Shown here piece by piece: positions 4,049 to 62,145 of a DNA stretch of 64,000 bases. The stretch covers positions 1 to 64,000 of the forward strand of contig JABANP010000103.1 in NCBI GenBank assembly GCA_013115135.1, read 5' to 3'. The notes under the pieces are model-generated. The model made no database searches, was not told where the DNA came from, and worked only from the letters and a program-made list of their open reading frames with translations. The position numbers and the translations under genes are program-made. The DNA comes from Perkinsus olseni. Its lineage: Eukaryota; Perkinsozoa; Perkinsida; Perkinsidae. Every line of letters begins with the position of its first letter. Within the stretch, counting starts at the first letter, position 1.

Positions 4049-5566
4049 TCAATCTAATCGACAGTGGAACGTGAATGAAGAGACATCAACAGCCCGGGAT
4101 CGCGCACCCCACTTCCTGAAGCGCCGGAATACTACCGTCAGCGCACTCTGCTCAGCCAAGGCACCCCACGGGCTCTCTATCATATCCTCGCCAACAGCCA
4201 TGCGGGAGAAGCGACCAGATACCCCAAACCCTATCCGAGTCGTGCGGGTTATCCAGCATCCGAAGAAAGCAGCAAACATCGTCACAAACCAGGCCATGAA
4301 AGCCAACAATGCCAGGCCTTCAGAGTCGACCTCCGCTGGGAAGTTGAAGGAGTGCAGCGACTGTACCACGGACTTGATGGCCGAGTGGTTGGCGTTCACT
4401 GTGCATACGACGCTCGCGTAGACCATGAAGCTGAGCGCAGAGCGGCGCAGAGAAGTGGAAGTGTGGTTACCATGTGGCATGATCGGCTCGGGACCGAACC
4501 GCTTATAGAAAACCGTAGCGCAGATCGAGACCACGAGAGCCCAGAAGATGGAGAGGAAGAGCGAGGCAGGGTAAGGCTTGAGGAGCATCACATATCTGTG
4601 GAAGAACTGGTGTATTACGACAATACTTGTAGGAGCGGACGAACAAAAGCGCTCCACGATGGGATCGAACCACCGACCTTGTGGTTAACAGCCACACGCT
4701 CTGCCTGCTGAGCTAGCGGAGCCTTGGTACTCAATAAGTTCAGAATACCTCTTCGGGTATAAGTACTCGAACTCTCTTTCACTACTGTACTAGCGCTCCC
4801 TAACCTCATCTCCCCCATCTCACATTATCAGCCACCAGGCGGTCCCCACGCTGGTCCCCATGCAGTACATAAAGAGCAGTAGAAGGTACTGGCGCATGTT
4901 CTGTGGGACGAATATGCTAGCACCGCTTCTGCGCAGGGCCGCATGCACACTCAGAGTACACACGAGAGTTGCCCCAAAGGCAAACGTTGCAACCATGAGC
5001 CCATTCGAGCCAGGACCACGACTTGCCAGCGTAGCTGACCACCATCCGTACTTGGGCCGACAACACCGTCATCGGCAGCCACTCGGCTGCCCCTGTGAGC
5101 ACCGACCACGAGAACGTTCGCGCGCACCACCGATTCCAATACGGGTCGCCCAACTTCTCCTGGAAATGCCACACGAAAACACCCGCTAGGAGTAAGCAGA
5201 CAAGGAACTCCGTCATACCTGAGGGTAACAGCAGGGAGTGATACAAACTCAAACAGAAATAGATCACACTGACGAGAACGGTTGAGCCCTTGTCTCCCAC
5301 GAACTACCTGCCGCCAAGCACATGCTGAAACTATTCCGCTGGCATCGGGTGGCAAAGCCGAAGTCCATCGATCGAGGGTCCTCTCCCAGCACGGACAACA
5401 CGACCGAGTCTGCCATCATCCTCAGTGCTCCCGACGACACCACCGTAGCAGTGTTTCGGAAGTAGGTACGATATGTAGACCGCCAGAGGTGCTCATCCTC
5501 TACCACAGACTCTCCCATCCCCGTCGAATCCCGTGACAGCAGGCCAGTGGTTTCAGGGCTGTCCAT
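4049..5566 (-). CDS. Multi-pass membrane protein, function unknown
   Basis: Four exons (5566-5322, 5268-5103, 5050-4824, 4595-4049) join in frame to 394 codons. The first two introns are 53 and 52 nt; the third is 228 nt and carries a tRNA-Asn gene on the same strand. The start is the only ATG giving an uninterrupted first exon. Residues 1-30 are polar; after them come about eight hydrophobic segments, for example around VIYFCLSLYHSLLLP, FLVCLLLAGVFVWHF, MVATFAFGATLVC and LFLSIFWALVVSIC. The C-terminus is basic and polar. No family was recognised. The stop lies 170 nt below the dolichol kinase stop's neighbourhood, that is, this gene starts just downstream of dolichol kinase on the same strand. 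Exon frames were solved by hand from splice phases, so the model is good but not proven. Confidence 0.65.
4650..4722 (-). tRNA. tRNA-Asn (anticodon GTT)
   Basis: A 73-nt cloverleaf reads 5'-GCTCCGC at 4722 and ends GTGGAGC plus discriminator G at 4650; the acceptor pairs at all seven positions with one G-T. The A box is TAGCTCAGCAGG, the anticodon loop is CTGTTAA with anticodon GTT, and the B box is GGTTCGATCCC. A short T-run (CTTTTG) follows. It lies inside the 228-nt intron (4596-4823) of the surrounding membrane-protein gene and in the same orientation, so polymerase II transcription of the host crosses it. Confidence 0.93.
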
Positions 5567-10466: not shown

Positions 10467-12132
10467 CTACTCTTCCTCGAAAGTCTCGTCAATATCATCC
10501 TCGTAGTCACCCGTGTCTTGGGTGGTGTAGTCGGTATTCACCCGAGCTGTGTCGTTATCACCGTCGATTTCCGTCTCCTGCTTCACCTGTTCCAGGGAAG
10601 GGAATCTTTGCTTCATCTCGGGACCTGACAAAAAGGTACCACTACGACCAAACGCCGCCTCTGATACCGTCCAGAAGATAAGCCGTACAAGTGCCCCGCC
10701 AACCCTCATCGATTTCTCCCAAATAAATTTCCCATCTTCCATTTTCTATCATAAAATTTTCCCTCGATCTTGATACGCTCGTAATTTCCCAACCCCTCTT
10801 ACCGTTCTGCAGCTTGTTCTCTCCCCACTCCACTATGTCGAGGAATTGAACCTTGGCGAACTCCCCGATGTCCGACAATGAGTGGGTCTGGCTGAGCTGG
10901 TGGATGGCTATGGCGATAACGCCCACAGACAGGACTCGGCACACGATCATCAGCCAATCGTCCGAGCGATAGGCGAACGAGTACAATGGCTGGAAGGACT
11001 CGATTACTCCGAGCTGAAAGGGACGGAGGGCAGGTATCCAAGGTTCATCCATGCAGGATACAGAAGAGGTCGAGTTGACACTTACATCCTCATCGAGGAG
11101 ATTGGGGAAGATCCAGAAGTCCGCGCCGAAGGCCCAGAGTGCCACATAGCAGATCATTCGAATGACGAGCAATACCGTCATAAACGTCGAGAAGGCCACT
11201 GTTAAGTACCTAGGATAAAAATCTTCGCTGTACGCAACTCCCAAAGATACGCCCTACCAGACGGCAAGCTTAGCCCACATCGGCCATACTGGGAAGAGGC
11301 ACATCAAAAGGACGGCAGTAATGACGACCGCTAAGAGGACGTATTGCATCGTCTTGGATCCCTAAGTAGAACAAAAATTGCACAAAAAAACACGCTTCGC
11401 TCCGCCTTCCCTCCACTACCTCCCATTCAACAATATAAAGGCCCTTCGGGTCATATCCCTGATGCTGGGGCGCCACTCGGCCGACCCTATCGGGCCACTT
11501 CCGACGACGACGCTCCGTACTTCCCGAAGGCTTGTCCGTTGCTTGGATCTAGCTTCGACCAAAGATACGCCGAATCGACACGCCCCACCCCTCCAGTACC
11601 GTAGCATCCACACAGCGGAACATAAAGCCATTGGTGATGAGGGGGATCACAAGCTTAGCGTTGTCCGCCTCCGTCTCGGGGGCCTTGCCGTCGAGACACT
11701 TCTTCAAGGCCTCGGGACACCTCTTCTTAAGTAGAGTGCCGTTATTGAGAAGGAACTCTGTTAGCTCCTTACCTGCAGCCAATCAACCGTCACGCGCCAC
11801 GAAATTCCAACGCCGTTCCACTGAGCCCGCGTTACCGGAATAAAAACGGGAAATTTCCCCGGAAATCGGAGAAATTTACCCAGGAGCCCTACGAGCGATT
11901 ACCTCGGATGATAGTGACAACCTTCTTCCCGACCTCAGTGGCAGTGCGATTGTTGATGCCCTTCTTGCTCATCAGAAGTTTCACTGAAAAACCCACAAAA
12001 TCACAGCGGAGCGACGCAGAAAATACCCCCAATCCTCGTAATGCCAGCGCCTAGATTCGAACCCGGGACCAGTCGATTACTCAATGGCTCCATCGTCGGA
12101 TCCCACTCGCGCTTTCCTGCGGCCTGGGACAT
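10467..12132 (-). CDS. SEC62: SEC62, ER post-translational translocation subunit
   Basis: Eight exons (12132-12081, 11983-11903, 11772-11600, 11548-11420, 11361-11258, 11209-11086, 11013-10803, 10624-10467) join in frame to 343 residues. SEC62 works with SEC61 and SEC63 in moving finished polypeptides into the ER. The N-terminal cytosolic part is basic; RRRRKWPDR leads to two membrane segments (QYVLLAVVITAVLLMCLFPV and the segment ending WAFGADFWIFPNLL), then the conserved VIESFQPLYSF and, near the end of the family domain, DIGEFAKVQFLDIVEWG. The tail is acidic (DDIDETFEEE), as in SEC62 of other eukaryotes. Start 12132 is chosen because the 97-nt first intron keeps the frame. Six of the seven introns carry one of the four repeat motifs described in the findings. 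A stretch of 137 nt separates the stop from the next minus-strand start. Confidence 0.92.
11087..11112 (-). other. Downstream half of SEC62 intron 6 donor region
   Basis: The 72-nt SEC62 intron 11085-11014 begins GTAAGTG here and contains the A-family hairpin at 11033-11066. In an unspliced reading the intron stays open, which makes the exon look longer than it is; the SEC62 family shows that PNLLDED must join LGVIESF. Confidence 0.5.
11362..11419 (-). repeat. C-family element in a 58-nt SEC62 intron
   Basis: Minus-strand intron GTAGTGGAGGGAAG then GCGGAGCGAAGCG, a T-rich tract and TTCTACTTAG. The motif starts about 15 nt after the 5' splice site. Confidence 0.65.
11549..11599 (-). repeat. 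A-family element in a 51-nt SEC62 intron
   Basis: The intron ends with GCGTATCTTTGGTCGAAGCTAG on the minus strand, the first half of the A-family hairpin placed at the 3' splice site. Confidence 0.55.
11773..11902 (-). repeat. B-family element in a 130-nt SEC62 intron
   Basis: GGAATTTCGTGGCGCGTGACGG lies about 15 nt before the 3' splice site CTGCAG on the minus strand. Confidence 0.6.
11984..12080 (-). repeat. Composite SEC62 intron with T-family and C-family elements
   Basis: The 97-nt intron starts GTAATCGACTGGTCCCGGG, then TTCGAATC, a tRNA anticodon-to-T-arm layout, and further on holds CGTCGCTCCGCT, the C motif in reverse, before TTTTTCAG. A candidate shorter acceptor lies at 12035, which suggests that a T-type intron of 46 nt was extended by a later C insertion. 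Confidence 0.6.
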
Positions 12133-12286: not shown

Positions 12287-12340
12287 CTAGGGCCGTAAAA
12301 ACGCACTCACCGAGGTTCGAACCCACGATCTTTGGATTAC
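12287..12340 (-). repeat. T-family intron-like element at the thiolase stop
   Basis: From the TAA-containing GTAATCC the sequence reads CAAAGATCGTGGG, TTCGAACCTCGG, TGAGTGCG and TTTTT, then CCCTAG: 54 nt with donor and acceptor. It is a tRNA 3' half in layout. If spliced, the thiolase C-terminus would be extended by about a dozen codons; if retained, translation stops at its third base. Confidence 0.5.
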
Positions 12341-17861: not shown

Positions 17862-19036
17862 ATGTCGTCGACTGTGGAAGCGATAACAAAACAGAATCCG
17901 TCGGAAGAGGAGAATGAGAAGCGGAAGGATGAGAATGTTGAACAGACCGTAGTGTCGGAGGAAAAAGGCGCCAGTGGCGGAGGGGGAGAACGCCAAAGAC
18001 TAATGGAGGTATGCGGAAGGTTGTGGGTTCGATTCCCGGGGAGTGCTTTTTATGATTTCAGAGGCAATTCCGAGCAGCGAGGAAGATCATAAATTGCAGC
18101 ATGAGTGGAGCCTGTGGGTGATGTCACAGCAAGGAAGGGTAATAATGGGAGGCGGCGGAGCGAAGCGATTCACGAGTGTACATTTTCTCCTCTCGCAGTC
18201 GGTTAAGGATCACTGGCAGCAAAATCAGCAGAAGGCGATTGACTTTGGGACCATTGAAGAGTTCTGGAGGATTTCCAATAACATGCACAAGCCCAGCAAG
18301 CTCGTACACGCGGACTACAGCGTCTTCAAGTATGGTGGATTAGGTCCCGGGTTCGATTCCCAGTACCTGCATTTTTTCTCAGATCTGGTGTTAGCCCCGC
18401 CTGGGAGGACCCCATGTGCACTGAGGGCGGCAGATGGATCGTGAAGGCTGAGAAGCAGAAGGTGAGCGTCGTTGCCAACGACCAATGGCCGATTGCCCCT
18501 TCCGTGTCGCAGATCATCGATGATATCTGGACGGAGGTGGTCCTGTCGGTTATCGGGGAGACCTACTACCCCCTCATTAATGAAGACATCGTCTGTGGTG
18601 TGGTATGCAGTGTTAGAAGAGGTAGGGAGGATAGAGAGGAGGAGAGAGGCATACCAGTGGTGCACTGGGGAAGAATTTTTGGGCGCGCGAGAAAATCTCG
18701 GGTTTAGTGCTGTTGTAGTACTGTGGAGAATGGCATCGCAAATGCCGGCGGTAGCGACGGCTGTACCACCTCTTTCCCTAATCTTATCGGTAACGACCGC
18801 CATACCATCCCTTTCCCTAATCGTATCACTCCTGCCGTCGGCCGTCGTCTGTGCTCCGCTAGTGGTATGCGGAAGAATCTTCGAGAGCAGTAGTCGTTGA
18901 CGCCGCGACCTCCCTCCTCCTGCCTGCTTTATGTGCTTGTCCTTTAGGAGGAGTTAAGATCGCCCTGTGGTTGTCCTCACGAGAAGAGAAGCTTGTGAAG
19001 CCCCTGGGACTGAGATTCAAGCGCATTGTGCAGTAA
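17862..19036 (+). CDS. EIF4E: Translation initiation factor eIF4E (cap-binding)
   Basis: Five exons (17862-18008, 18064-18138, 18199-18329, 18383-18621, 18948-19036) encode 226 residues, the usual eIF4E size. eIF4E binds the mRNA m7G cap and recruits eIF4G. The tryptophans of the fold are seen in order: HEWSLWVM, VKDHWQQNQ, TIEEFWRIS and WEDPMCTEGGRW, the last holding cap-contact residues, then IIDDIWTEVVLSVIGE, DIVCGVVCSVR and the end VKIALWLSSREEKLVKP. The first 45 residues are an acidic, glycine-rich leader. The last exon is placed at 18948 since it restores the family C-terminus; an open frame to 18895 inside the 326-nt intron is not coding. Two introns (55 and 53 nt) are T-family, one (60 nt) is C-family, and the long one holds a B-like motif. 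Confidence 0.92.
18009..18063 (+). repeat. T-family intron (tRNA 3'-half-like) in eIF4E
   Basis: GTATGCGGAAGGTTGTGGG is followed by TTCGATTCCCGG, GGAGTGC and TTTTT, then ATTTCAG. The layout from the 5' splice site is anticodon side, variable region, T arm, acceptor strand, T-run. Confidence 0.65.
18139..18198 (+). repeat. C-family element in eIF4E intron 2
   Basis: GCGGAGCGAAGCGATTCA lies at 18155-18172 in a 60-nt intron, followed by CATTTTC and the acceptor. Confidence 0.7.
18330..18382 (+). repeat. T-family intron (tRNA 3'-half-like) in eIF4E
   Basis: The 53-nt intron reads GTATGGTGGATTAGGTC, CCGGG, TTCGATT, CCCAG, TACCTGC, A, TTTTTT and CTCAG. T-stem (four of five pairs), acceptor strand, discriminator and terminator-like T-run are all in tRNA order. 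Confidence 0.7.
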
Positions 19037-19793: not shown

Positions 19794-21655
19794 ATGGAGA
19801 AGGGACATAGGGTTTCTGTTGGGAGGTGGAAATGGTCCTCGGGCAGCGCTGCTTTGACTATGTCGTCATTACCGTCGACGTCCAACGAGTCCCTGTGTGG
19901 GTTGGACTCGAGCTTCACTGTCATCCTTGGCACGCAGTGGGGCGATGAGGGCAAGGGCAAGCTGGTGGACATACTGGCCCAGCGAGCTAACCTGTGCGCT
20001 AGGTTCAATGGAGGGGCTAATGCTGGTAGGGAGGGTATCTTAGGTTGAAGGCTGCAGGATACAAATTTGGTTAGGTCACACTTTGGTGGTTGACGATCAT
20101 AAGTTCGCCTTCCATCTTCTTCCTTGCGGTATCGTTAACAAGAAGTGCGACAACTTAGTTGGGAATGGAGTGGTATGTCGGATGAGGGGGTGGTGATTTA
20201 TTTCATCTCCACTGTGATGGTCAGGTCCTTCACGTCCCGACTCTCCTTAAGGAACTCGAGCAGTTGAAGGACTATGACGCGGAGGCCCTCAAGCGTCTCT
20301 ACCTTTCCAATAGGGCCAGTCTGCTGTTCGACGCCCACCAGATGGTGAGTGGGAGGCCCTTGGGACGGAGTCATTTTACTGTTTTTCTATCAGATTGATG
20401 GCATCCAGGAAGCTGGGAAGAACTCCACAGCCATCGGCACCACCAAGCGCGGCATTGGCCCGTGCTACGCCAACAAGACCACCCGTAATGGTCTCAGAGT
20501 TGGGGACCTCATGGACCTCCCCACCTTCGACCGCAAGCTTCGTGAGCTCCTCGAGTGGTGCCAGTTGAGGTAGGGGTATCTTTTTTTCTGGATATGCCAC
20601 GGATCGACCTGCTGCAGGTACAATATTGAGCTGGATATTGAGTCTGAGGTGAAGCGTTATCATGGCTACGCGGAGGTGCTGAAGAGCCAGATAGTCGATA
20701 GCGTGACGATGATGCACAAGGCCATTCAGAAGTCACAGCGAGGTAATGGTTCAGGGGGGAAGGGCGGAGCGAAGCGATTCATGTTTGTCATTTTCAGAGG
20801 ACTATAATATCCTTGTGGAAGCTGCTAATGCTACCATGCTGGATATCGACTTCGGTACTTATCCGTATGTGACCAGTTCTAACACGACCATTGGTGGCGT
20901 CTGCACCGGCCTGGGAGTTCCCCCTCAGGCTATTCAGTGCATTATTGGTGTCGTAAAGGTAGGGTGTAGGGTGCGGGGATCGAACCTGGGACCTGTTGGA
21001 TGGTAGGCATACACCACTCGTGTCGGTGGAGGACCCTTCCCTACTGAGCTGTTCGACGAGTATGGCACTCAACTTCGTGAGCAAGGTCACGAGTATGGTA
21101 CTACCACCGGTCGTCCTCGCAGATGTGGCTGGCTGGATATCCCCGTATTAAAGTGAGTCACCTCAGGCGGAGCGAAGCGATGCATGAATACCATTTTCCT
21201 GCCTTCACAGGTACTCTAACTTCCTCAATGGATTTACCAGTTTTAATGTGACCAAGTTAGATGTTCTCAGCGGCATGAAGAAGCTTCTCGTAGGCCCCAT
21301 TAGTCGCTTCGCTCCGCTCGACCCCCTCATTTTCGCAGGTCTGCACCGCCTACGAAATCGACGGCAAGAAGTTGGAAGACGGTTACTACCCCTCGACCAT
21401 TCAGGAGCTCGAGAAGGTGAAGCCGGTGTACACGGAGATGGAGGGTTGGACTGAAGACATCAGCAATGTACTCCCGATCGCTCACGTCCGTTTCCGATGG
21501 TCATGGGGATGGTTCTCAGGTTAAGTGCTTCGAGGAGCTGCCCGCAGCCGCCCAGAAGTACATCGAGGCTCCTGGAGGAGTGGACCGGCGTTCCTGTGTC
21601 GTGGATTGGCGTTGGCCCTGGTCGCCAGGATATGATCAGGAGGCACACTGAGTAG
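19794..21655 (+). CDS. ADSS: Adenylosuccinate synthetase
   Basis: Ten exons (19794-20025, 20075-20172, 20225-20344, 20394-20569, 20618-20742, 20798-20958, 21007-21152, 21211-21289, 21339-21467, 21520-21655) give about 466 residues. The enzyme joins IMP and aspartate with GTP on the way to AMP. Motifs: [15 protein letters not shown] (GTP loop and catalytic Asp), [45 protein letters not shown] and [12 protein letters not shown], then TKLDVLSG and the C-terminal [16 protein letters not shown]. The first 35 residues before the domain are an extension. One base in the GG at 21567-21568 must be dropped for the last 28 codons to read in frame. Introns are 48-58 nt; they include two A, three C (one reversed) and one reversed T element. 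Confidence 0.93.
20026..20074 (+). repeat. A-family element filling a 49-nt ADSS intron
   Basis: GTAGGGAG then GGTATCTTAGGTTGA, GGCTGCAGGATACAAA and TTGGTTAG. The GTATC/GATAC hairpin spans most of the intron. Confidence 0.7.
20570..20617 (+). repeat. A-family-like element in a 48-nt ADSS intron
   Basis: GTAGGGGTATCTTTTTTTC starts the intron and GGATCGACCTGC lies near its end. The first part matches other A introns closely; the hairpin partner is degraded. Confidence 0.5.
20743..20797 (+). repeat. C-family element in ADSS intron 5
   Basis: GCGGAGCGAAGCGATTCATG followed by TTTGTCATTTTCAG, nearly the same 3' half as eIF4E intron 2. Confidence 0.7.
20959..21006 (+). repeat. T-family element, reversed, in a 48-nt ADSS intron
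   Basis: GGGGATCGAACCTGGGACC is the reverse complement of a T arm (GGTTCGATCCCC). Family sequence VKAYTTRV across the junction proves the intron. Confidence 0.7.
21153..21210 (+). repeat. C-family element in ADSS intron 7
   Basis: GCGGAGCGAAGCGATGCATG at 21167-21186 followed by ACCATTTTCCTGCC and the acceptor; very close to the element in intron 5 of the same gene. Confidence 0.7.
21290..21338 (+). repeat. C-family element, reversed, in ADSS intron 8
   Basis: TCGCTTCGCTCCGC at 21304-21317 is the reverse complement of the C motif, in a 49-nt intron between GMKKLL and [11 protein letters not shown]. Confidence 0.7.
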
Positions 21656-22527: not shown

Positions 22528-25004
22528 GTAAAGTATACGACCTTACAGACTTCCTCACGGAGCATCCTGGCGGCTCTGCGATCCTCTTACGCCATTCTGG
22601 CAAGGATGCGACCAAGGAGTTTGAGAAGTTCCACTCTGAGGACATGATCGAGAGAGTCTTGCCAGATGTAGTTGGGGCGGAGATTAGTACCTCACCTTCC
22701 CTCAATCACGTAGTGGGTCTGATGTGAGGACCGCGGTGACTGCTCTTGGAGTATTCGAATGCCCGCTAAATTTGGCGGAGTCGGGCCTCTCCGAGGAGAG
22801 GGAGTTGATAGCGCTGTGTGCCGATCAATAAGACGGTGGTCGGCAAGACGGTACTATTTTGGGCAATTTCGCGGCGCGCGAAAGTGTCCTGCACGGCCGG
22901 AACTGGCAGCCATGTGATAGCACACTAGGTCAATCTTTGGCTATTAATACCACCGTGATGAGCTCATGGTGTGGTACGGATACCTTTCTTGTGGTAGTGC
23001 CTGTCCTCAGTCGGTTATTGTCGGTGATTATGAAGATGCTGGCGCTGGCGAGGCTGCGCCGCAGTTCACTGTGGGCGATGAGGATGAAACTCCGAAAGCG
23101 TCCTCGACCGGCAACTCTACCGCAGCATCGACGGAAGGAGAAAGTGAAGTTACTATCGACATGATGCTCAACGCGATGGACTTCAAAGCGGTTGCTGAGA
23201 GTAGGACTAGGCCGCGGGTTCGATCCGCGGGGCTGATATTTCTCCCTGCTCTGTTGAGCATATGATCACCTCGCTCATTCAGAAAAAGTATCACCCGAAG
23301 GCTGGGCCTATCTCTACTCGGCTGCCGGGGACGAGTTCTCTTACGCAGAAAACGAAGACGCGTTCGCTAGGTGGGAGCATGAACAGAGCCCGAGTGATGT
23401 TCGTCAGGCATGCTTCGCAGGATCGCGATGGTGCCGAGAGTGCTGGTGGACGTCAGCAAGGGTGGACTGCTCGACGGTCGGTACTGGGCCGCCACTTCGA
23501 CGTGCCCTTCTATATGACAGCCGTGGCCATGGCGAAGTTGTATAATCCAGATGGTGAGAGGACTCACTGGAAGGCGTGCAATGATGGGCTTTGTCTTTGG
23601 TAGGTGAAAAATGCGCAGCTAGAGGTGTCAGTAAAATGAAGCGAGCTGGAATCGATATGCCCTACATGGTACCAACACTGGCCAGTTGCGGTAATAATTT
23701 TTCGTGCTTCGCTCCGCCTTGGTTGAAGACACACTTTCGCTATGCAATGCAAGGCCTCTTTCAGGTTTGAGGGACATCATGTCTGCCTGCGACCCGTCCC
23801 TTGCAAAATGGTACCAACTTTATGTCAACCCTAGTGAGAAGGTTGTCGAGTCCATGATTACAAGAATCGTAGACTACGGCTTTGCGGCCCTCTTCATCAC
23901 GGTCGATGCTCCTGAACTGGGCATGAGAGAACGGGATATGCGGGTGAAAGTGCGGCAAAGTGCAGCCGTACAAGGCGGAGCGAAGCAAGAGACAGCCGGT
24001 GTCGCGCGGGCGATAAGTTCCTTCATCTCACAGTCACTGTGTTGGGAAAATATACCGAAAATTTCCACTATGGCCAGGGAAAAAGCTGCAGCTCGCGGAG
24101 GGGAAATTGATATTTTTTTGAAGGGCATTCACTCCCGTAAGTGTATTCATCACATCAGCGTCAATTGCAGTGTTGTCTTCTCAGCTGTCGATGCAGTGCG
24201 GGCCTATCGTGAACGCCATCGGCTAGGAGTTCGGGGAATTGTGGTATCGAATCACGGCGCTCGGCAGGTGGATACTGTAAAAAGCGGCGTGCAGATGCTG
24301 TACGAGTGCACTCGAGCTCTCGGGAAGGTGATACGCGGATGTTTGCCCGGATAGAAAATCCTAGAGTCGTTTAATACACGCTCATCGACTTCGAAGGAGG
24401 TCGGCACCCTCGAAGGGCATGGGAAATGTCGACTGCAACCTTTTCGAGAATGGGGCCTGGGAAATTCTCTTTTATCGGCTGAGCTCTCAGTACGACAGCA
24501 GCAGCAGTGATGATCGGAATTCGCGATAGCCCCGGTTGGCATGGCCCGAATTGTTCGTAAATCATAATGCGCAAGTCATTTCCTGAAGCAATCATAGAGT
24601 ACCGTAAAATCACCAACTCTCACTCATACCTCCGTGAATCAACGCTACCATTAGATCCACTTTGTAAGCGTAGAATCATACTGTCATTTCCTCAGGCGGG
24701 TTGGCTAGGTCGTGGCGACCCGGAATTTTCAGTTTTTGTAGACGGTGGTGTGAGGCGGGGAACAGATATTTTGAAGTGCATTGCCCTCGGGGCGAGCGCG
24801 GTTGGCATCGGTCGCCCGTTCATGACGGCCATGGCCGCTTTCGGCGAGGACGGTATGGTTCGACTGGCCAACCTCCTCAGGGAGGATATCATCACCAACA
24901 TGCGGCTGTTGGGCTGCCGGACGCTAGATGAGCTGAATGAAGATTTTTTGGACGCGCGGGCGATGGAGCATCCCCCGCCGGGGAAGGTGCGGGCTCGGTA
25001 TTGA
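22528..25004 (+). CDS. Cytochrome b5 / FMN-dependent 2-hydroxyacid dehydrogenase (flavocytochrome b2-like)
   Basis: A heme-binding cytochrome b5 unit (GKVYDLTDFLTEHPGGSAIL, with a second histidine in EKFHSED) is fused to an FMN 2-hydroxyacid dehydrogenase, the arrangement of yeast L-lactate:cytochrome c reductase. Dehydrogenase landmarks are GWAYLYSAAGDEF, RVLVDVSK, PFYMTAVAMAK, WYQLYVN, FITVDAPE, FLKGI (catalytic Lys), SNHGARQVD (catalytic His and Arg) and FVDGGVRRGTDILKCIALGA. Likely exons: 22528-22667, 23011-23200, 23259-about 23371, 23422-about 23531, and others to 24696-25004. Two extra Gs, in GGG 23460-23462 and GG 23480-23481, break the frame between RVLVDVSK and the next conserved block. 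The first exon and any targeting peptide are not resolved. Substrate (lactate or glycolate) is inferred from the family. Introns carry B (22865), T (23201) and reversed C (23706) elements. Confidence 0.85.
22865..22880 (+). repeat. B-family element in the 343-nt intron of the flavocytochrome gene
   Basis: AATTTCGCGGCGCGCG differs from the B consensus at one position. It lies in the intron 22668-23010. Confidence 0.55.
23201..23258 (+). repeat. T-family intron in the flavocytochrome gene
   Basis: GTAGGACTAGGCCGCGGG, TTCGATCC, GCGGGGC and TGATATTTC. The outer bases CCGCG/CGCGG pair perfectly. Frame across the junction (KAVAE then TYDHLAH) supports splicing. Confidence 0.65.
23975..23986 (+). 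repeat. C motif inside a coding exon
   Basis: GCGGAGCGAAGC encodes part of VQGGAKQETAGVARAI in the FMN domain, where family proteins have a variable loop. It may be a former intron or insertion now translated, or chance. Confidence 0.4.
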
Positions 25005-25987
25005 TCAGTTGTTTCTAGATTTTTTTCCCTGCGTCATCGCGCATTTCTGAAGACTCTCAAGGAGTTTCACGATGTGCTAGTGTTGTGTGTGATACACTAC
25101 GTCTTCACCAGTGGTAGAAGGCCAACCTGGCAGTGAGTTGGCGGGAGAAGCCTTGCGTAGGGAACTGACGGGTAGACGATAGCGCAAGGACATACCATCA
25201 ATCGCCCGATTCGTCTGACATAGTACATCCTAGGGGAGTGGGTGATACCACGCCCCTCGCTCGCCGAATACACACGTCGCTACCTTAACGATGCTAAGCA
25301 TCACACGACAGGAAAGAAATCTTTTTATTTCTGACACCTCCGATGAACTTCTGATTCTCTAGGAACCTGCAAACTTATTGGCAGTCGGATGCCTTTTTCG
25401 GCGCTTTTCAGCGCCATAATATCATCATAAGGGAAATTAGTGTAATCACTGAGCCCAACCCAGTAGCGTGGAATGAACAACATTCTGGTAAGGCAGTGTT
25501 CATGCAGCCCGACGGATGACCGCCGACGGCCGAGGAACGGTCATTGGACCGTGATTAAAGCAATCAAATCCCTTCAAGGAACAGTCAATCGTCGACGCCA
25601 GAATCGTCGCGGAAGATCTTGTCGCTGTGGAAAGGGTCGCTAGGGTAACGCGAGACGCCTGCAGGAGGCGGGGAAGGGGTGCGATGAACAGGGGGCTTAT
25701 ACTGTCCCAGCGCCTGCAATTTCGCGGTCCGAGGCAGCAGCGCGACGAAGCAGGAAGAATAACGGATAGTACCTTTTTAACTGCTCCCCAGGTGCGGGCT
25801 GTCAATGGTGGCTTCTTGTCGGCTGCTGTGTGTCTGAGATCGGAAGTGGCTGATGGACATGACCGTCGAACCCACCGTCGAGATCTCAACTCGATCACTG
25901 TCGGGTCCTCAGAGGCAGTAGCCTCGCTCAAGTCTAAGGAGCGACGGAAAACTCTACGACGGTCCACCGTGGGGCGAGGGCGCTCAC
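25005..25987. other. Intergenic stretch, no confident gene
   Basis: Both strands are open at 25500-26070, which is typical of GC-rich non-coding DNA. Only the short exon at 25988-26069 looks coding. Confidence 0.35.
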
Positions 25988-45131: not shown

Positions 45132-45419
45132 GTTGCGATAGTTGTCATTATCGGCATGTACTACTACGCCTGGACGGCTGCGACGCCGAACTATTACAAC
45201 GTGTTGCACGTTAATAAGGATGCTCAGCATGTTGAGGTCTATCAGATGTACAAGAAGCTGTCTGCTGAGACGGATGATCGCCGACTCAAGGAGACGTAAT
45301 CGAAAGGTATCCGGTTCGATCCTATGAACGACCATCTCAGATATGACAGAGCTTACGCTGTGCTCGGCAAAGCTAGAAGGAGGTCAGAATACAACGTATT
45401 CGGTGACATCCTCCAAATG
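45132..45419 (+). CDS. Membrane-anchored J-domain-like protein lacking HPD
   Basis: Exons 45132-45295 and 45341-45419 are joined over a 45-nt T-family intron that otherwise places TAA in the frame. A hydrophobic segment (VAIVVIIGMYYYAW) precedes NYYNVLHVNKDAQHVEVYQMYKKLS and, after the junction, YDRAYAVLGKARRRSEYNVFG. This follows the J-domain order (helix II, then AYxVL and R..YD.FG), but where DnaJ proteins have HPD this one has TDD, so it should not stimulate Hsp70. It ends at a donor (GTAGGTC), so more exons follow. The start is missing too. It may be an ER-membrane co-chaperone relative. Confidence 0.6.
45296..45340 (+). repeat. T-family intron in the J-domain-like gene
   Basis: GTAATCGAAAGGTATCCGG followed by TTCGATCC, TATGAACG and CATCTCAG. 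Its first 19 nt closely match those of the T introns in SEC62 and at the thiolase stop. Confidence 0.65.
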
Positions 45420-53230: not shown

Positions 53231-54187
53231 CGAGAGTCGTCACTCGTGTCCACAGTCCACACGGCAGAAGCCCGCCCAAGGAGTTCACTACTACTTACTC
53301 CTATCGGCCCCTCAAGTACGACAGCTGATTGACGAGTTTGTCTCATCCCCTTGTAAGGTTCGCCGAGCCCACCATCGCCTCCGCCGGACTCGTCATCATC
53401 CTCGAAGCCTCCCTCTACAATGTTCATCACTCCATGATTACTCTCGTGAATTCACTAAGCATGTATATTGCACCGGTGTGCTGCATACTCAACAACATCG
53501 CAAGTGTTTCATAGAGAGCCTGTCGAGTCATCAGTGTCTATCGACGATGACTTTACTGCATACATCTGTCCTCTCAACAGCTACTTTTTGGTGTATATAA
53601 CAGCGGTCCTCGCGCCATCTTTTGGTAATACCCTGCTGCAAATTACACCTCCGCAACGAAAAGGAGCTTGACGCGAGTCTCTCGGGTTCGAACCCTGGCC
53701 CGAGCTTCTCGGTAACGTTTCGGGAGCGCCTACCGCGGCTCACGACAATTCTGGCCGGTAGAATGGGAATGAAACCGCTTTCGTATTTCTGAAATTACGC
53801 AGACCATCGTTCTCGCGACACGTAACATAGCGGCGTTTGCTTGTTGCAATGCTTTGCTTAACAGACTCGATTTCGTCTTTGATCGGCAATCTTTATTTCA
53901 TGATAATTCAACTATTTAATAAACTGCTTTTCCTTACTTTCAAGATCGCCCCCGGATTCCACACATTAAAATTCTTTGGCTTGACGAACAGGGTTTATTC
54001 AACAGGCTGAATCGTTCCCCACGGAAAGGTATGTCGATGTTATTGTATCCGCCACTCAAAAGAATGAATGAAACGCGTTTCTCCCCCGAGGTCGCCTGGG
54101 ACACTGTCAAACACAAAACTACTCTTCGAACGATCAACGATGAAACAAACAGCAATCTATAAATATCCGATGGCAGGGATGGGTCGC
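53231..54187. other. Intergenic stretch with a T-arm-like sequence
   Basis: CTCGGGTTCGAACCCTGG at 53676-53693 matches a T arm, but no tRNA body or intron frame could be shown. An AT-rich tract lies at 53880-53950. Confidence 0.35.
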
Positions 54188-61159: not shown

Positions 61160-62145
61160 TTGCAGGTCTCAACGATGTCAAGCCTCTATCGGCGATGCTT
61201 CATGCACGGCTTTAAAAGTGGTTGGGTCGGCGGGTTATGGCCGAGCGTCCCTGCCATACCACAATTCTGCGTAATCCTACCAATTCGGCATCCGCTCTGT
61301 GATGGCTTCGCGCCAGGTGCTAGGGCCTATGTACCATCTTTATACGAGTTTTCTGGGACAGCAAGGGGCTCTCGTTTGCACCGGTATGAGCCATTCTCTT
61401 ACCTCGCCTCCTCGACGCTACTCCTCCCCTCAGCTGTGACCGAGACGGCCATTACCTATGGCGCCAACACTAGGAATGCTGAGGTTGCCTATAATCAATA
61501 CGTTCCTCGAAAGGATCGTCTCACTAATCTTACTCCAGCGTACAAACCGATTGGCCCGGGGGCTCTCGTAAGGACCGCAGCAGCAGTCGGGCCGCTGAGG
61601 GCTGTTAACGACGGTTATGTCAGATGCACGCGGTACGAAACGCGTTGGGGATGTGCGGTATGAGGGTGTTCGCGGCGCCTCTGGATGAACACATGTGCAA
61701 AGTCATTCGCAATCCACAGGCTTCTCGGATGGTATCAGACTTTGTAGCTTCCTGCCTCAGCGGTAGGTTGCTCCTTCCCTACGCGGTAGGTCCCCGGTTC
61801 GAATCCTGGGTGTGCCATCAGGTGCCATATCCATGCCATTCAATCAACTATATAATTTTTTCGTCACATCCAAAGAGGCCCGGGAGTCCACCCGACTACA
61901 GCGAGTTACTCTCGCCACCACCTACCTTAGGGGACAGTACCTCACTATTGCACCAGATGGATCGTAAGATACGCCCCCCAAAATAAAAGGTAAAATATTT
62001 TTTCTCAGTGTGCGCCCAAGCAAAGATCATGCTCCGGGACATGGGCATGCGTTGCCTCTATGCTGGTACATTATTCTGCATCTACGCCACCATTGAGCGG
62101 ACTCTCGTGGAGAACTGGCCGGCATGGTCTGAAGCATATCTCTGA
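61160..62145 (+). CDS. Possible membrane carrier-like protein
   Basis: A frame around 61350-61650 (NAEVAYNQYVPRKDRLTNLT) changes to an exon with RVFAAPLDEHMCKVIRNPQA and VSDFVASCLSG, joined over a 59-nt T-family intron (61763-61821) to AISMPFNQLYNFFVTSKEAR and RVTLATTYLRGQYL. A further exon near 62014-62145 has MLRDMGMRCLYAGTLFCIYA and IERTLVENWPAW to a TGA stop. The SGAISMPFNQLYNF and GMRCLYAGTLF stretches resemble the end of a mitochondrial-carrier-like membrane protein. The last junction is out of phase as written, by one base, so either the donor is wrong or there is an indel. Start unresolved. Confidence 0.45.
61763..61821 (+). repeat. T-family intron
   Basis: GTAGGTTGCTCC, then GGTAGGTCCCCGG, TTCGAATCC, TGGGTGTGCC, A and TCAG. 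The bases before it (TGCCTCAGCGGTAG) look like a tRNA A box, so more of the tRNA layout is kept here than in the other cases, but the acceptor stem does not pair. Confidence 0.6.

Follow-up and report, generated by a model that had tools for sequence, protein, structure and literature searches.

The eIF4E gene shown above contains two short introns that follow the order of a tRNA from about the anticodon to the 3' end, and similar introns occur in other genes of the window, by which we mean the whole stretch of 64,000 nucleotides of Perkinsus olseni DNA that was analyzed (C6:1-64000). This raises the question of how spliceosomal GT-AG introns may have acquired the layout of a tRNA 3' half. The origin of new introns is a long-standing question; a family with a tRNA body would link intron gain to an RNA made by every cell and would explain the donor site and the polypyrimidine tract in one insert. 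With a probability of roughly 0.68, we regard these introns as an introner-like family of GT-AG introns that was seeded by tRNA 3' halves and is present in both orientations. Both the tRNA ancestry of the core and its spread by insertion are what we infer from sequence comparisons.

Introns with a tRNA-like core in conserved genes

The following features of the window carry the core or are candidates for it.

18009..18063, plus strand: eIF4E intron of 55 nt with a sense tRNA-3'-half core, containing GTATGCGGAAGG, the T-arm, a T-run, and the end CAGAG; the frame is restored on removal
18330..18382, plus strand: eIF4E intron of 53 nt with a sense tRNA-3'-half core; junction ADYSVF/KSGVSPAWEDP, with an IF4E match (3.6e-25) across it
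20959..21006, plus strand: ADSS intron of 48 nt with a reverse core, GGTTCGATCCC being on the minus strand at 20976-20986; Adenylsucc_synt match
23201..23258, plus strand: intron of 58 nt in a flavocytochrome-type gene, sense core with GGTTCGATCCG; supported by the frame
45296..45340, plus strand: intron of 45 nt in a J-domain-like gene, starting with GTAATCGAAAGG; supported by the frame and a DnaJ match
61763..61821, plus strand: candidate intron of 59 nt in which, by eye, the tRNA likeness extends further upstream of the T-arm; supported by the frame
11984..12080, minus strand: intron of a SEC62-like gene starting at 12080 with GTAATCGACTGGTCCCGGGTTCGAATCT and ending at 12035 (46 nt) or 11984 (97 nt); supported by the frame
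12313..12340, minus strand: tRNA-half-like core GTAATCCAAAGATCGTGGGTTCGAACC, a second minus-strand copy near the SEC62-like intron, found as a motif match without placement in a gene

Both eIF4E introns are located where the first-pass annotation had placed them: excision of the two yields one frame, and the IF4E match crosses the second junction. The reversed intron proposed for ADSS was supported by the Adenylsucc_synt match (3.9e-53 over 1-100), which spans the junction, and that of the J-domain-like gene by an open frame and by the DnaJ match across the junction, which at 1.2e-4 is below Pfam's cut-off. The remaining proposals held in part. A 159-residue open frame runs across the flavocytochrome junction, but the FMN_dh match (0.0049) starts past this junction and proves nothing there. 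The intron at 61763-61821 lies in a 99-residue open frame but without a Pfam match, and the frame of the SEC62-like gene stays open with either intron end, albeit again without a significant Pfam match.

A similar core recurs in introns of many unrelated genes elsewhere in the genome. All 10 spliced peptides of a first set matched a Pfam family, and nine of these matches cover the junction of the motif intron, two of them below Pfam's cut-off. Sense junctions were thus covered in a kinesin (YGQT/GSGKT, 3.2e-20, 49-nt intron), a protein kinase (SNI/VHRDIK, Pkinase, 4.7e-10), and a zinc_ribbon_6 protein (2.7e-22), and below the cut-off by Response_reg (4.2e-5) and Abhydrolase_1 (4.7e-5). The TPP_enzyme_C match (9.6e-14) spans one sense and one reversed motif intron, as does the Metallophos match (6.6e-15) of a phosphatase, which does not reach the first of the three introns in this gene. 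The malic-enzyme match stops before its reversed intron, and this case rests on the stretch FNDDVQGTA after the junction, which we take to be a conserved malic-enzyme stretch. In a second set, two of 10 peptides matched, one of them being the phosphatase again, and eight gave nothing; a proteasome-repeat match (3.7e-6) extends only two residues beyond a reversed-intron junction. Judged by frame and homology, the motif units are spliceosomal GT-AG introns, the predicted removal of which rebuilds conserved proteins.

Other sequences also recurred in the introns of the window. A second motif consists of CGGAGCGAAGCGAT(T/G)C and a subsequent CATTTT and was found in the plus-strand introns 18139-18198, 20743-20797, and 21153-21210, with a stretch resembling it at 11404 on the minus strand; it may represent a separate introner family whose 3' end is similar. 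Further recurrent intron cores were GTATCTT...GAAG-type stretches (20570 and 20026 on the plus strand, and minus-strand introns), and a short AATTTCGTGGCGC...CGGAATT element, palindromic in part, occurred in both orientations in predicted introns and elsewhere. A histone 3' stem-loop match at 25395-25440 (plus strand, E of 0.004) was below the Rfam cut-off. With regard to the splicing machinery, the U2 snRNA is canonical and carries GTAGTA. The sequence CCGTAGCCATCTTGGCTCAAG, presumably the Perkinsus spliced leader, was present at 146 sites with at most one mismatch and at none in the reversed control; on C41, C871, and C270, the leader sequences take turns with U2 snRNA genes located on the other strand, the repeat measuring about 3.3 to 3.5 kb.

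Abundance, location, and tRNA register of the core

The motif GGTTCGANNCC was searched in the assembly of 61.48 Mb in 968 contigs, yielding 4,458 sites compared to 602 for the pattern read backwards, with self-complementary sites counted on both strands. One such self-complementary sequence, GGGTTCGAACCC at 53684-53695 of the window, matches the pattern on both strands and is outside all predicted introns. Allowing up to one mismatch, the window contained 34 matches versus 15.9 expected, a number reached by none of 100 shuffles. A genuine tRNA gene of the window served as a yardstick:

4649..4722, minus strand: tRNA-Asn(GTT) gene, itself no intron; ARAGORN call, Rfam tRNA model 62.1 bits

Eight of 100 rows sampled from contigs C1 to C7 were real tRNA genes (seven genes, one counted on both strands), leaving 92 non-tRNA rows. 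A rough estimate, obtained from the 4,458 sites after deduction of the control count and of the fraction of tRNA genes in this sample, puts the tRNA-like sites whose B box is exact at roughly 3,500, about two-fifths or more of which look intronic; it is an extrapolation from seven contigs, with self-complementary sites counted twice. A local classifier sorted the 92 rows into 29 sense introns, 18 reversed introns, and 45 rows without intron assignment; it runs on the earlier gene-finder model described below and misplaced the kinesin donor, the right intron having 49 nt. After eight rows had been dropped by eye as exon-like or weak (L006, L008, L068, L076, L085, L088, L103, and L126), 23 sense introns, 16 reversed introns, and 45 rows without assignment remained.

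The location of the motif was evaluated in 264 kb chosen regardless of its presence, consisting of the window and C1:1-200000, in which introns were called by a simple ab initio gene finder written for this purpose. Seven of the 10 non-tRNA GGTTCGANNCC sites were inside predicted introns, which cover 29.2 kb or 11% of the sample, and three were in the remaining 234.8 kb (P = 1.8e-5, with gene-finder settings picked partly on a correct eIF4E outcome). Generic splice-site seeds only were used in this run, and motif introns were withheld from the splice-site retraining. It was a rerun, done because the earlier seeds had included the splice sites of four motif introns (two in eIF4E, L051, and kinesin) in addition to those of one other eIF4E intron; the earlier-seeded run had given the same distribution of seven and three. 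Three of the seven intronic sites are window cases from the first-pass annotation itself. In C1:1-200000, which was new to that annotation, four of four sites were in predicted introns, two of which the local classifier left without intron assignment. The enrichment was weaker for the pattern GGTTCRANNCC, with seven sites in introns and seven elsewhere (P = 3.4e-4), and only one of four sites of the reversed pattern in the 264 kb was in a predicted intron. The comparison of motif frequency in introns and other DNA, which the first-pass annotation had named as its own check, supports its observation.

In tRNA numbering, the order along the core is A44-G-G-T-C48, the T-arm, a variable stretch, C72-A73, and a T-run at 74 to 77. 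Among the 92 non-tRNA sites, A44 was present in 50, G45 in 52, G46 in 60, T47 in 47, C48 in 69, C72 in 59, A73 in 53, and T75 in 55, and the information at positions 66 to 69 was 0.02 to 0.16 bits, as is usual for tRNA genes in general. In the 23 sense introns, the profile stood out more clearly (A44 in 18, G45 in 21, G46 in 22, C72 in 16, A73 in 15, and T75 in 20). To avoid circularity, a further set was anchored on positions 35 to 48 and comprised 38 loci, some of them paralogous to each other, picked solely on GTAATCGAAAGGTC, of which the genome contains 65 copies and the reversed control none. The T-loop bases, unselected in this set, were nevertheless retained, with G53, T55, C56, and A58 each in 37 of the 38 loci and C61 in 36. 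GTAA stood at positions 35 to 38 ahead of AGGTCCCNGGTTCGANNCC in 70 copies, paralogues counted, versus four after a shift by one base and none in the reversed controls. Of the 16 reversed copies, 12 keep C72 and 11 keep A73, and the T-run is kept in part (29 of 64 cells), which indicates that these positions are part of the unit and not merely of a 3' splice site. C48 and C50 were invariant in all 16 reversed introns and not so in the sense copies. The landmarks 44 to 48, 52 to 62, and 72 to 73 and the T-run thus stand in tRNA register. This register and the shift control of 70 versus four support well that part of the earlier proposal which derived the introns from a tRNA 3' half, but a retroelement as their source found no support, as outlined below.

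Origin of the unit and competing explanations

According to the preferred reading, the unit would consist of the 3' strand of the anticodon stem, the variable loop, the T-arm, the acceptor strand, and a T-run behind the discriminator base, and it would have been scattered among genes in either orientation in the fashion of introner elements. Sense copies would bring their splicing signals along, since GT at positions 35 and 36 followed by A37 and A38 would give a GUAA(G) 5' splice site and the T-run a polypyrimidine tract ahead of the AG. In reversed copies, the splice sites would be supplied or evolved by the host.

In the genetic code, GU at positions 35 and 36 is found only in tRNA-Thr (anticodon NGU). 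GT at this position followed by A37 and A38 therefore points to an anticodon NGT for threonine, and this pattern, NGT at 34 to 36 followed by AA as read from the introns, was used as a search pattern that then led to three multicopy tRNA-Thr genes. Their positions 35 to 48, with GTAA being native, read GTAAGCGGGAGGTC for AGT, GTAAACTGAAGGTC for TGT, and GTAAGCAGAAGGTC for CGT, by an ARAGORN call of one copy each. Copies identical to GTAAGCGGGAGGTC over 35 to 48 but with a CCN T-stem exist on C103, C376, and C579, and the one fetched, L177 on C579, gave no tRNA call. Positions 49 and 50 of the introns are mostly CC versus GT or GG in tRNA-Thr, and the T-stem is mostly CCN versus GTC or GGC. A comparison of the stem bases 39 to 43 with 13 tRNA genes, about half of the isotypes, did not single out Thr, Arg-TCT being slightly closer with 2.76 matches of 5, followed by Thr-CGT and Arg-ACG (2.43), Thr-AGT (2.24), and Thr-TGT (1.90). 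From the GU at positions 35 and 36, tRNA-Thr appears as the most natural candidate for the donor. Repeated tRNA-gene clusters, evenly spaced in parts, were seen on C96, C137, C154, C172, C667, and C778 (Ser, Lys, and Thr, with the isotype on C778 unread).

A bolder version, which we consider rather doubtful, is that anticodon-cut tRNA 3' halves, above all those of tRNA-Thr, feed new spliceosomal introns and that the T-loop core is subsequently selected. A cut after base 34 would produce an RNA starting with GUAAG and, in case of a precursor, ending in a U-run, which would be an intron lacking just the AG. If so, one tRNA would have been preadapted, through the letters of its threonine anticodon, to turn into introns.

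The introns differ from intact tRNA halves in several respects. Beyond the copies with GTAA, the donor positions are scattered, with four of the 29 gene-finder sense introns beginning at position 35, and over the 92 rows GTA or GTG was equally frequent at position 19 (8) and position 35 (8). Positions 74 to 76 are mostly TTT (T in 47, 55, and 52 of 92) and not CCA. Unlike in real tRNAs, Watson-Crick covariation of the T-stem was not found, neither in the rows retained above (P of 0.17 to 0.92) nor at the three variable pairs 49:65, 50:64, and 51:63 in the 38 loci (P of 0.81 to 0.96); the sole nominal excess among six pairs examined was at 50:64 with G-U allowed in the 92 sites (57 versus 50.1, P = 0.0135). 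A stem between the acceptor bases and the 5' side was rejected overall, with a mean longest stem of 3.63 in 130 elements versus 3.59 after shuffling. With G-U pairs permitted, the 18 reversed copies gave the sole hint of such pairing, as their mean stem was attained in one shuffle out of 60, and a 7-bp stem in L056 was not general. In 20 sampled loci, the Rfam tRNA model gave one match, sub-threshold at 17.9 bits, in addition to one T-arm match of the tmRNA model, and at both eIF4E introns of the window, Rfam found only the T-arm of the tmRNA model (10.9 bits, E of 3.1). These sparse sub-threshold matches indicate that Rfam is a weak detector of half-tRNAs.

Alternatively, the units may have arisen from a tRNA-derived SINE through target-primed reverse transcription, as retrocopies truncated at the 5' end, with a part of them serving as introns. 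This is very improbable. By eye, a few copies look as if the tRNA remnant extended to the anticodon or the D arm (L007, L184, L189, and 61763 of the window), the first three of which ARAGORN did not call as tRNAs, isolated A-box matches other than obvious tRNA genes exist, and positions 72 to 77 are conserved with variable donor positions, all of which would favor such retrocopies. Against it, the A box at canonical distance from the B box gave, in three spellings, only 96, 310, and 46 matches beside the 4,458 B boxes, and most of the A-box matches listed belong to a small number of recurring tRNA-gene sequences, L187 to L189 being among the scattered exceptions. A target-site duplication was not found at the junctions of the 39 introns left after the drop by eye (P of 0.21 and 0.33), the T-run is the only tail, and no master element was seen. 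Since there is no duplication, most of the listed A-box matches repeat tRNA genes, positions 74 to 76 are mostly TTT, and both orientations occur, a retroelement origin is unsupported.

The core itself may instead be a B box (an extra-TFIIIC site) to which TFIIIC or some other factor binds as DNA and which is selected in introns in any orientation, so that the tRNA would have provided only the raw material. This explanation is unlikely. In six pairs of paralogues, positions 49 to 62 differed at two of 84 bases and positions 63 to 73 at 10 of 66 (P = 0.0055), as would be expected from a selected B box, but the core did not change more slowly than the 60 bases upstream (2/84 versus 15/360, P = 0.75). 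The core thus behaves as constrained relative to the adjoining intron bases and not relative to the upstream flank. The six pairs, a small sample, were chosen on positions 35 to 48 only and include 157/159 added by eye; left out were same-family extras, 141/142 with unalignable 3' parts, 039/162 with an indel, 043/050, 051/169, and 128/163. The pairs 051/169 and 128/163 showed zero of 28 differences in the core versus one of 22 in the adjoining bases, and an earlier tally with strands mixed and families repeated had the same direction (B box, 1/197; 63 to 71, 17/195). The occurrence of both orientations would also agree with a B box, as would the fixed positions 52 to 58, 61, and 62 with freer positions 59 and 60, even where unselected, a pattern that we take to be the B-box consensus. 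However, AGGTC, CA, and the T-run are superfluous for a B box, and T54 is replaced by A in nine of 38 loci. The slow change raises the question of an intron's need for a T-loop or a B box.

A further alternative is that the core is a splicing signal, with the TCGA of the T-loop forming part of the branch region and the likeness to a tRNA being convergent; TCGA would appear in both orientations because it is palindromic. In 196 other introns, no tetramer was more over-represented than TCGA (52 versus 27.8 expected), the A of TCGA was 15 to 24 nt before the intron end in 26 of 57 occurrences, and TCGA exceeded expectation 1.87 times in HC introns, 1.49 times in exons, and 1.27 times in all. The positional test, however, was weak, with 29 versus 22.4 expected within that range in 208 introns, the canonical GTAGTA of U2 speaks against such a branch region, and AGGTC, the CA with the T-run, and the register are left unexplained, which makes this explanation most improbable.

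Comparison with known introns and tRNA-derived elements

SINEs derived from tRNAs keep the 5' half of the tRNA with the A box. The introns described here share with them the B box and the T-run of a tRNA but mostly contain the 3' half alone. Mature 3' tRNA halves, produced by a cut in the anticodon loop, end in CCA; the boundaries of the introns, from about position 35 to the 3' end, resemble those of such halves, but positions 74 to 76 differ as given above. Introners of known origin are tied mostly to DNA transposons, and some introner families lack a target-site duplication.

The introners of Amoebophrya possess noncanonical splice sites, inverted repeats of 8 to 20 nt, and direct repeats of 3 to 5 nt, according to the accessible part of the report (PMC7789003). 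Like these, the introns of P. olseni would be invasive short introns in a myzozoan parasite, but they are GT-AG introns with a tRNA-like core and without duplication. In the titles and beginnings of abstracts surveyed, subscription papers and preprints being outside this scope, no report on tRNA-derived or tRNA-like introns or on Perkinsus introners was found, and the words "tRNA," "SINE," and "Perkinsus" did not appear in the main text of PMC9860276 as far as it was accessible. The tRNA-half cores in either direction point to an intron source for which this survey showed no report.

Introner elements are, in the accessible portions of these sources, sequence families recurring as introns (PMC9860276), with Micromonas and Aureococcus named as examples (PMC7789003). 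The introns described here differ from them in having a tRNA 3' half as their body, in the short length and strong divergence of the copies, and in junctions without duplication. They resemble them in forming a recognizable family in many unrelated genes, which, as for the introner elements (PMC9860276), would speak for intron gain by the spread of an element.
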